NCBI GenBank assembly: GCA_029940535.1
Contig: JAPYUM010000046.1
Span: forward strand, 1 to 33,184
Direction of reading: 5' to 3'
Source: Vicinamibacterales bacterium
GTDB taxonomy: Bacteria > Acidobacteriota > Vicinamibacteria > Vicinamibacterales > UBA8438
DNA length: 33,184 nucleotides
The translations under genes were made by a program, and so were the position numbers. The notes beneath the pieces are model-generated. The model was not told the DNA's origin and did not search any database. It worked only from the letters and a program-made list of their open reading frames with translations. Shown in pieces: positions 27,844-30,298 of the stretch (position 1 is its first letter; each line of letters starts with the position of its first letter).

Positions 27844-29463
27844 TCATTCTGCGCCCGGTTGTGCCTCTCGGCGACGCTCGGAGTTTCGCTCCGCGCTCAG
27901 CCGTTCGAGGGCAACGGCTGAGTGGTCGGCGAATGTCATCGCGTCGGCAATGGCCTGGTGGCCCGCCTCTTCGGCAATGAGACGGTGCATGCGCTGGCAG
28001 ACCCGCCGGTAGGCAGGGTGGCCCTGGGGAGACGTCCGCAGCTCGATCACGTGCATGGCTTCGCGGGCGTTCATCTGCATCCGGTATCGGATCCGGTAGG
28101 CCATGGCCACCGTGTATTGTGCGAGTTGGGTGGACTCGGCGCGCAGCGCCTGGTGCATCTCGGCCGTTCGGTCCATGACCCGCCGCCAGTCATCCACGGC
28201 TCCGAGCTCCTCGATGGCGGCCGGCTCGGTGTAGCCGTGGTCCGTCGTCAGTTCTTGCCATTCGATGGTGAGCAGTCGATGGCGCTGCAGGTCGCGGAAC
28301 GCGCCATAGTCCGACAGCATCTCGAACGAGTACGTCGTCCGCTCGAACGCCCGCCCTGGTCGATGACGTCGGTTCGCGCGATTCCCGATATAGGCGCGCA
28401 GCACCGTGGCCCGCTCGTCGGCACCCATGCGTCGCGCAATCTCCAGAAGTTGGTTTTCTGAGAGACGGGAAGACTCGTACAAGGCCGCCGCGACAACCTT
28501 GACCTCGCCCTCCGGGTCGAATTCCGTCAGCGCCACCTCTGGCCGGGGGTCGGGGTCGATCTGTCCAAGCAGACGGGCCGCGATCGCACCCGTCTCACTC
28601 CGCGTCTCGGTGAGGTAGCGACTCCAACGAACCCCGCGGTCTTCTCGGTCGACTCGGGTCAGAAAGGCGGGGATGAGCCGCCGAAGCTCCCTGAGCATGA
28701 GGTCGGCGCAGTCGCGGGCTTCGGCGAGCGGATGGGCGCGCAGGCGCAGCAGTAGGTGCTCGAACGCCTGACCGGTGCCGAAGATACCAACGTTGGAGCG
28801 AGTGGCCGCCGGCAAGAGTCCCCGAAGCGTGTCCAGGGCCTTGGCCCGGATAGCGGCTCGGTACACGCCGTCCGAGTCGGTCGACGACTGTGGGTGCCGA
28901 CGGCGGTAGTACGCCTGGGCCGGCTCGATCCATCGGCTGTAGGTCTGGAACGCGTCATCGAGGGTCGCCTGATACGGGGCTCGGAGCGGGTGCCCCTCCA
29001 ACTCGGGGGGCGTCAGGTACTTCCATCCGCCGCCCGGTCGATCGGTATACGGCACATACCGCGTCGACTGCTCGAGGTAGGCCATGAGACGACCACGCTC
29101 GAGGACCTTCGTCAGTACGTTCGACACCCCTTCGCACGCCAGGTGCGCTCCGCCGAGCTGGGCGACCGAGTCGTCGCCGTAGTCGCCGAAGACGCGCTCG
29201 TACAGACGCTCTGCGCGCTCAGTTCCGATCCCGGCGTGGACGGTGTCGCCGACCACACTGTCCAGGAACTCGTCGAGAAACAGTCGTCGAATCGATTTCG
29301 CGGAACGCGAGTATCGAGCGAACAGGGCGCCCTTGACCACCTCAGGGAGGTTGCGTAGCGCGAAGACCGGCTGGTCAAGATTGGTGAAATAGGGCGTCAG
29401 CGCACGACGCTCATCGGACGTGAACGACTCTTCGGTGGGATCAGGCACGCGTATAATTGTCAT
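27844..29463 (-). CDS. Tandem ThyX-like protein with two complementary half-motifs
   Basis: This 539-residue protein contains two ThyX (flavin-dependent thymidylate synthase) folds. Repeat 1 has YSRSAKSIRRLFLDEF, a H-x-GVSN segment, LERGRLMAYLEQSTRYV (121-137) and LRLRAHPLAEARD (239-251). Repeat 2 has TYSFEMLSDYGAFRDLQRHR (377-396) and ELRTSPQGHPAYR (474-486). The canonical motif RHRxxSxNExSxRY is split. Repeat 1 keeps the EQSTRY half but has ERGR for RHR; repeat 2 keeps RHR but has TIEWQEL afterwards. The canonical enzyme is a homotetramer of about 220-residue chains. Whether this is a thymidylate synthase is unclear. ATG 29463 lacks a ribosome-binding site, and GTG 29448 is an alternative. 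Confidence 0.78.
   Translation of the reverse strand: MTIIRVPDPTEESFTSDERRALTPYFTNLDQPVFALRNLPEVVKGALFARYSRSAKSIRRLFLDEFLDSVVGDTVHAGIGTERAERLYERVFGDYGDDSVAQLGGAHLACEGVSNVLTKVLERGRLMAYLEQSTRYVPYTDRPGGGWKYLTPPELEGHPLRAPYQATLDDAFQTYSRWIEPAQAYYRRRHPQSSTDSDGVYRAAIRAKALDTLRGLLPAATRSNVGIFGTGQAFEHLLLRLRAHPLAEARDCADLMLRELRRLIPAFLTRVDREDRGVRWSRYLTETRSETGAIAARLLGQIDPDPRPEVALTEFDPEGEVKVVAAALYESSRLSENQLLEIARRMGADERATVLRAYIGNRANRRHRPGRAFERTTYSFEMLSDYGAFRDLQRHRLLTIEWQELTTDHGYTEPAAIEELGAVDDWRRVMDRTAEMHQALRAESTQLAQYTVAMAYRIRYRMQMNAREAMHVIELRTSPQGHPAYRRVCQRMHRLIAEEAGHQAIADAMTFADHSAVALERLSAERNSERRREAQPGAE
29452..29457 (+). promoter_or_regulatory. Possible -10 box for the MBL-fold gene
   Basis: TATAAT on the plus strand lies 49 bases before GTG 29507, inside the first codons of the divergent ThyX-like gene. 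Paired -35 sequence is not obvious. Confidence 0.35.
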
Positions 29464-29506
29464 CGCTTTTGTCGGTTCGTCAAACAGACCTCCTCTCGGG
29501 CCCCCT

Positions 29507-30298
29507 GTGAATACCACACTGGTTTTCGGCGACAACCCCGGGCCGTATACCGGCGCCGGCAACAACACCTATTTCATTTCCGGGAAGATTCCGACTCTCG
29601 TGGACGCGGCCACGGGCCAACCTTCCCACCTGGATGGGCTGGCCGGCGCGCTCGGGGCGGCGAGTCTCACCCAGGTGCTGGTGACTCACGCACATCCCGA
29701 CCACGCGGATGGCTGCGACCCGATCGCGGCCCGATGGCCAACCGCCGTGTTCCGAAAGATGCCGTGGCTGGAGCGCGACACGCGGCACTCGGTCGACTTC
29801 CAACCGGTCGCGGACGGCGACCCGATTCCGGCCGGGGACGGGACGCTGAGAACGGTGCACACCCCCGGTCACGCACCGGACCATCTGTGTTTCTTCGACG
29901 AGGCGGGGGGCACGTTGTTTTGCGGTGACCTGGTCGTGCTGGGTAGCTCCGTGGTCATCCCGAGTTCTCGTGGGGGCAGCTTGACGCAATATCTCGCGTC
30001 GCTCCGGCGGGTACGAGATCTGGCTCCGGCGCGCATGCTACCGGCCCACGGGAGCGCCATCGATGCGCCGGGCTCCGTCATTGACGGTTACCTCGAGCAT
30101 CGCCAGCGGCGGGAGGATCAGATCATTGACGTCATGCGGGCCGGCGCGCGACACCCGGATGTGATTGTGGAGCGCCTGTACCAGGGCGTCCGGGCGGAGC
30201 TTCGGCTGCTCGCGAAGGAGAGCGTGCTGTCGCATTTGATCAAGTTGCGGGACGAAGGTCGTGTGCGTGTGGACGGCGAAGAATGGGCGCTCAGTTGA
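29507..30298 (+). CDS. MBL-fold metallo-hydrolase, LACTB2-like
   Basis: This 263-residue metallo-beta-lactamase-fold protein has the metal motif THAHPDHADG (H61, H63, D65, H66). Further ligands lie in HTPGHAPDH and FCGDLVV, and PAHG supplies the last His. The C-terminal region (HRQRREDQIIDVMRAG through SHLIKLRDEGRV) resembles the winged-helix end of LACTB2-like proteins, some of which are nucleases. The substrate is unknown. GTG 29507 gives the usual start (NTTLVFGDNPGPYTG). ATG 29420 would overlap the ThyX-like gene antisense and is less likely. Confidence 0.82.
   Translation: MNTTLVFGDNPGPYTGAGNNTYFISGKIPTLVDAATGQPSHLDGLAGALGAASLTQVLVTHAHPDHADGCDPIAARWPTAVFRKMPWLERDTRHSVDFQPVADGDPIPAGDGTLRTVHTPGHAPDHLCFFDEAGGTLFCGDLVVLGSSVVIPSSRGGSLTQYLASLRRVRDLAPARMLPAHGSAIDAPGSVIDGYLEHRQRREDQIIDVMRAGARHPDVIVERLYQGVRAELRLLAKESVLSHLIKLRDEGRVRVDGEEWALS

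Follow-up and report, generated by a model that had tools for sequence, protein, structure and literature searches.

ThyX is an antibacterial drug target, and its active site, in the canonical 222 homotetramer, is well known to be built from three identical subunits. The contribution of each subunit has been described for the M. tuberculosis enzyme, in which FAD is held by the RHR motif (residues 95–97) of subunit A together with Ser71 and Arg190 of subunit B, and dUMP is bound by Arg95 and Arg199 of A and by Ser105 and Arg107 of C; Tyr108 of C forms a lid, and Gln103 of C also lies in the site (PMC6514825). In PBCV-1 ThyX, Ser88 and Gln89 of monomer B likewise face Arg182 of monomer A (PMC3498832). 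R174 activates dUMP, and S88, R90, and Y91 matter for catalysis (PMC8316439). In the 33 canonical ThyX rows that we aligned, H79, R80, S88, R90, Y91, R147, and R174 are invariant within one domain.

The window, that is, the whole stretch of 33,184 nucleotides analyzed, carries at 27844..29463 on the minus strand a gene for a tandem ThyX protein of 539 aa plus stop, recognized from the open reading frame (ORF) listing, two Pfam Thy1 stretches, and relatives. The initial annotation had placed a tandem ThyX-like protein here, longer than the canonical 220–250 residues or so, and the ORF and both Thy1 stretches bear this out. The ORF runs from an ATG at 29463 to a stop at 27844–27846, and an alternative upstream GTG at 29568 would yield 574 aa. 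Thy1 (PF02511) matches the protein in its two stretches with 138.8 bits (E-value 2.4e-40; curated cut-off 24.8 bits) and also matches 54/54 of its relatives. Repeat 1 (residues 1–305; 28549..29463) is a ThyX domain keeping the dUMP-side residues (Thy1 match 2.6e-21), and repeat 2 (residues 306–539; 27847..28548) is a ThyX domain keeping the FAD-side RHR and R174 (Thy1 match 6.7e-16); these and all features of the protein given below lie on the minus strand. The NCBIfam thyX equivalog TIGR02170 scores 52.1 bits against a cut-off of 87.9, so that the protein falls outside this single-domain equivalog as modelled. A metallo-beta-lactamase/winged-helix gene (29420–30298, plus strand) is divergent from the tandem thyX; with its listed GTG start it overlaps the thyX 5′ end, and a later start is more likely.

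The source genome (4.83 Mb, 96.85% complete) is a draft of 228 contigs, and the double-length gene could in principle result from two thyX genes joined in assembly or from a wrongly called frame. Such an artefact is refuted by the recurrence of the same single ORF in some 150 genomes of independent origin, among them that of Aquihabitans sp. G128, a complete chromosome (NZ_CP077604.1), as well as on plasmids and in phages.

Structure prediction agrees with the profile matches, both repeats being predicted as ThyX folds, a check on the monomer that had been proposed at the outset. The full-length AlphaFold model has a mean pLDDT of 86.6 and a pTM of 0.86. The model of repeat 2 (residues 307–515) matches T. 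maritima ThyX with a Z score of 16.4 (2.5 Å over 190 residues); repeat 1, predicted alone with a pLDDT of 79.8, gives a VIA match to M. tuberculosis ThyX at Z 14.1 (4.8 Å over 201 residues), far above its first unrelated rows at Z 4.5. Residues 41–70 of repeat 1 reach pLDDT values, by blocks, of 84/89/81 in the full-length model versus 70/68/69 when the repeat is predicted alone, and this rise in confidence in the presence of repeat 2 suggests that the modelled repeats are in contact.

We compared the active-site residues across 149 nonredundant tandem ThyX proteins, a set comprising four divergent subfamilies of 98, 29, 18, and 4 members, the first being that of the window protein. Alignment columns were tied to TM0449 numbering through a PDB sequence check (R78, H79, R80, S88, R90, Y91, R147, and R174) and mapped onto the tandem proteins by profile alignment and motif anchors. 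In repeat 1 (KVLERGRLMAYLEQSTRY), the EQSTRY motif (residues 131–136; 29056..29073) retains S88, R90, and Y91 in 98/98 proteins of the window's subfamily, and Arg214 (28822..28824), equivalent to TM0449 R147, is Arg in 98/98, the corresponding position of repeat 2 being Arg in 0/98. Ser99 (29167..29169), the equivalent of TM0449 T55 and M. tuberculosis Ser71, a third-subunit residue touching the FAD phosphates, is Ser in repeat 1 of 98/98 and Arg in repeat 2 of 98/98. Repeat 1 has lost RHR, as initially proposed, and carries ERGR in its place (residues 122–125; 29089..29100); the idea of a wholesale replacement needs refining, however, because R-G-R is in register with R78-H79-R80 and the strict loss in the window protein is that of H79 only. 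Across the subfamily, Gly takes the H79 position in 95/98 and His never does, and at the R78 position Trp (61/98) outnumbers Arg (34/98). The His53 position of repeat 1 is Asp in 97/98.

Repeat 2 (LQRHRLLTIEWQELTTDHGY) shows the reverse pattern. Its RHR (residues 394–396; 28276..28284) retains R78-H79-R80 in 98/98, and no S-x-R-Y follows it; the degenerate, hard-to-align loop at this place, EWQELTTDHGY (residues 401–411; 28231..28263), has Tyr at the Y91 position in 1/98. Further downstream, NAREAMHVIELR (residues 465–476; 28036..28071) provides the equivalents of the FAD-binding N163 and R165 and of the catalytic R174, conserved in the subfamily at 98%, 100%, and 100%, respectively. The set R78/H79/R80, S88, R90, Y91, R147, and R174 is thus complete across the two repeats of the window protein and present once over the pair, in line with the initial view that the repeats together hold one complete ThyX motif.

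The same division was found almost without exception in the comparison set. The exact arrangement, with S88/R90/Y91/R147 in repeat 1 and R78/H79/R80 in repeat 2, holds in 148/149 proteins and in all four subfamilies, so that the motif distribution first noticed in the window protein, EQSTRY in repeat 1 and RHR without the following Ser motif in repeat 2, is general. By position, repeat 1 has S88, R90, and R147 in 149/149 and Y91 in 148/149, and repeat 2 has R78, H79, and R80 in 149/149 and Arg at R174 in all 145 scored. A whole RHR is present in repeat 1 of 0/149, S88, R90, Y91, and R147 occur together in repeat 2 of 0/149, and none of the 149 combines an RHR-x7-S motif with S-x-R-Y inside one domain, these elements being divided between the repeats. 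The third site role, on which the initial annotation was silent, also falls to repeat 1: the T55 position is Ser or Thr in repeat 1 of 149/149 and in repeat 2 of 17/149. In a 54-sequence alignment, E131, S133, R135, Y136, and R214 of repeat 1 and R394, H395, R396, and R476 of repeat 2 are invariant. Because 148/149 homologs share the division and these key residues are invariant, the split is not due to chance.

Three ORFs from outside the tandem set deserve mention. One (L197; G130:C1:4376800-4380200) is a 692-aa canonical ThyX interrupted near the RHR region by about 400 residues, an insertion that looks like an intein. The other two (L195 and L196) are the sole Thy1 matches of the complete genomes G027 and G039 (of the same order), in which no tandem ThyX was found; their order looks permuted, with the NTHRMFSRNASSSRA part first and the GHWSPFEH part last. 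We considered them as truncated tandem ThyX and dropped this idea, as they look like a single permuted ThyX-like domain.

In ThyX tetramers, RHR/R174 and S88/R90/Y91 come from different subunits, so that the split matches a natural subunit boundary of the site. By analogy with the solved structures, repeat 2 would keep the role of subunit A, and repeat 1 that of subunit C plus the Ser of subunit B. R147 probably belongs to the C role, in keeping with the TM0449 binding-site annotation. Our preferred reading, to which we assign a probability of roughly 0.8, is that the protein is an active thymidylate synthase made of two fused ThyX domains, between which the site residues are divided, with live composite sites and dead reciprocal ones. 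It would carry out the flavin-dependent conversion of dUMP and CH2-THF to dTMP. Two chains would pair, their four domains mimicking the ThyX homotetramer; repeat 2 would provide the FAD-holding RHR and the dUMP-activating R174; R147, the three dUMP/lid loop residues (Ser, Arg, and Tyr), and the third-position Ser in contact with the FAD phosphates would come from repeat 1. A live site would then consist of repeat 2 as A and of copies of repeat 1 as B and C, an arrangement in which all residues would be retained in the places that a live site requires. As repeat 2 gives RHR/R174 and repeat 1 gives the dUMP/lid residues and the Ser, each chain would contribute one live composite site, which makes two per pseudo-tetramer, the two reciprocal sites being dead. 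We infer the enzyme activity, the oligomeric state, and the meeting of repeats 1 and 2 at the canonical interface. Composite sites with some of them dead had been one of two initial suggestions, and the subunit assignments, the strict division, and the lack of another candidate in the genome (see below) favor it.

Each repeat diverges from canonical ThyX and duplicates may decay, so one could also imagine that a single repeat is functional, with a live site formed by identical repeats of two chains, and that the other is decaying or a structural leftover. This is very unlikely: all the site residues occur in a single repeat in 0/149 proteins, both repeats are intact in four subfamilies, and pN is far below pS in both. 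In a comparison with an 86%-identical relative, dN was 0.09 and dS 0.81, with dN/dS of about 0.13 for repeat 1 and 0.06 for repeat 2; purifying selection acts on both repeats.

In a tree of repeats built without the active-site columns, for which the tool warns of long branches, the repeat 1s of subfamilies 0, 2, and 3 group together (SH-aLRT 96), as do their repeat 2s (SH-aLRT 92), whose branching mirrors that of the repeat 1s. A topology that makes sisters of the two repeats of the window's subfamily is rejected (AU P = 0.0086). Because the repeats group by position and the sister joining is rejected, the duplication is probably older than subfamilies 0, 2, and 3. As to a separate duplication for subfamily 1, both alternatives fit (AU P = 0.57–0.68).

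The losses on the dead side are incomplete. In the window's subfamily, repeat 1 still has R80 and, in most cases, an Arg close to the position of R174; R80 survives in repeat 1 of three subfamilies, and Y91 in repeat 2 of subfamily 2. We do not claim a loss of R174 from repeat 1, on which alignments disagree, one residue being missing between N163 and R174: hhalign places Arg there in 92% of subfamily 0, and subfamily 1 has no Arg by hhalign and Arg by another anchor. As a variant of the preferred reading, the dead pseudo-sites may have found a new use, such as the regulatory binding of a nucleotide or of FAD in an allosterically controlled ThyX. The retained R80 and residues invariant in the subfamily (E122, G124, R125, and D97 in repeat 1; P369, G370, R371, W402, Q403, and G410 in repeat 2) speak for it; however, invariance can be structural, and the dead-site letters differ between subfamilies, so that we consider re-use possible but doubtful. 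A wider scenario is put forward just as tentatively: in a widespread, undescribed class of thymidylate synthase, a tandem duplication long ago would have made an obligately asymmetric pseudo-tetramer with two sites out of a symmetric enzyme with four, and the dead sites would have been re-used for regulation.

The genomic context points to thymidylate synthesis. ThyX is anticorrelated with ThyA and DHFR (PMC6822775), and profile searches of the 96.85%-complete draft source genome found no second Thy1 protein, no ThyA, and no DHFR_1; the other thyA or thyX that the initial annotation had thought worth looking for is thus not found there, and the tandem ThyX is the only thymidylate synthase candidate in this genome. 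The genome carries a dNK-family kinase, which makes thymidine salvage possible. ThyA was found in 0/40 genomes of the kinship set (the source genome and relatives) and in 0/43 tandem-ThyX genomes from several phyla, 41 of which list no single-domain ThyX (one being the complete Aquihabitans sp. G128 chromosome). In a sample of Acidobacteriota, Thy1 is missing from every one of the 29 genomes that have a full-length ThyA; six genomes with Thy1 also gave weak partial ThyA matches (E-values 1e-6 to 1e-25), which we did not score as ThyA. The tandem ThyX stands in for ThyA and DHFR in the source genome and for ThyA in the other tandem-ThyX genomes surveyed, which include drafts, where absence is not proof. 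ThyA, Tdk, and dNK are all absent from five tandem-ThyX genomes that are 92–100% complete (G007, G008, G012, G015, and G021); tdk is reportedly present in species without any thymidylate synthase (PMC5954106).

These data bear on the other initial suggestion, a new flavin- or nucleotide-binding role, according to which the protein would derive from ThyX and no longer make dTMP, being, for example, a PolB-like UMP/dUMP methylase or a sensor. The missed NCBIfam cut-off and the replacement of His53 by Asp could be read in this way, PolB shows that the ThyX fold accepts a related substrate, and the entry title of 3ge9 describes a C. glutamicum ThyX as not required. Against this, all residues that contact dUMP and FAD are kept, once, across the repeat pair, and the tandem protein replaces ThyA/ThyX in dozens of genomes, some of them also without Tdk or dNK; we found no support for such a role and hold it to be unlikely. 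The neighborhood of the gene gives no further clue: the window itself contains no thymidylate-linked neighbors, and because the def, Nudix, ThiI, and metallo-beta-lactamase neighbors are kept by near relatives only, we dropped gene neighborhood as a functional indicator.

Full-length relatives are 95–55% identical to the window protein. A scan with one genome per species gave 285 candidate relatives, of which 80, with 95–56% identity, were kept. Their record titles, in which MAG labels can be wrong, name Acidobacteria, Rokubacteria, Acidimicrobiia and other Actinobacteria, and also Deltaproteobacteria/Myxococcales, Gemmatimonadetes, Planctomycetes, and Chloroflexi. Two MAG records titled Bifidobacterium breve (L017 and L054) carry the gene with 60–65% identity, and these titles are probably wrong. 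In the kinship set, 38/40 genomes have Thy1 matches, which almost always come as a pair within a single ORF of some 530–600 aa. The Acidobacteriota sample has Thy1 in 114 of 149 genomes, with two matches in 77; one of these 77 cases is a canonical gene that carries a long insertion, and another is split over contigs. Three genomes (G014, G020, and G192) hold two different tandem ThyX genes each (four Thy1 matches in two ORFs).

Double-length copies are also found on plasmid records of Euzebya, Miltoncostaea, Parabacteroides, and Paenibacillus, and in two jumbo phages, and relatives occur on 29 viral contigs. The Paenibacillus rhizovicinus plasmid gene (L203:1932-3518) is a divergent tandem ThyX with RHNR instead of RHR in its second repeat. 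The copy on a Parabacteroides distasonis plasmid (NZ_OY725790.1, circular, 278 kb, from a Bacteroidales strain) shares 47% identity with the window protein; it lies next to genes for a HIT protein and for a protein predicted to bind ATP, and it suggests horizontal transfer. In the viral set, S-x-R-Y/F comes first and RHR last in 27/29, the RHR part of this count being biased because one search pattern contained RHR; the other two keep S-x-R. Many of these viral contigs (L206–L234) exceed 100 kb, up to 529 kb, and their sizes indicate that very large phages carry the split ThyX. Genes for dUTPase and dCMP deaminase adjoin a jumbo-phage copy, and dcd (dCTP deaminase) lies near the Euzebya plasmid copy; all three are enzymes leading to dUMP. 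The same one-way split recurs across hundreds of bacteria from soil and water and in giant phages, in most cases with no other visible route to dTMP.

Large groups of bacteria from soil, the sea, and groundwater, most of them uncultured and including Vicinamibacteria, Acidimicrobiia, and Rokubacteria, appear to have the tandem ThyX as their only thymidylate synthase, and very large phages carry it as well. The tandem enzymes represent a natural experiment in which subunit roles have been genetically separated, so that mutations could target one role at a time in the same live site, which is impossible in a homotetramer. A search of the open-access literature turned up no paper that describes a tandem ThyX or a division of its motifs. 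The name thymidylate synthase is already given to such proteins in public annotation and in PHROGs.

Among described proteins, PolB (4p5a/4p5b) shares the ThyX-like fold (Z 11–13.5), but it matches less well, has a single domain, and is a UMP/dUMP methylase by entry title. T. thermophilus Thy1 (6j61) has a ThyX fold, is longer than usual, and ranks first among the VIA rows for repeat 2 (Z 16.5, 4.9 Å over 201 residues), tied with T. maritima ThyX; it differs in having one ThyX domain plus an extra C-terminal domain in a 270-aa chain, with no tandem. The PHROG profile phrog_36506 (thymidylate synthase, 491 positions, phage proteins) is of double length and matches the window protein at 2.2e-13 and the Tunturi_5 jumbo-phage copy at 3.3e-27, although the entry offers a name only and describes no residue division. 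The double-length proteins that PGAP calls FAD-dependent thymidylate synthase, such as WP_164711104.1 from a Euzebya pacifica plasmid, are of the same kind: the Euzebya, Miltoncostaea, and Parabacteroides copies are 47–50% identical over at least 90% of the protein, and the Euzebya copy has the same split motifs, but they are named by homology, with no note of the tandem structure and partition. With canonical ThyX (PF02511; TM0449, M. tuberculosis ThyX), finally, the tandem protein shares the family, the fold of both repeats (Z 14 and 16), and every key site residue apart from His53; it likewise replaces ThyA and goes along with a lack of DHFR. It differs in that a canonical chain of about 220–250 aa holds all the site residues and forms four identical sites per homotetramer, whereas the 539-aa tandem protein divides these residues between its repeats and probably has two sites per four domains.
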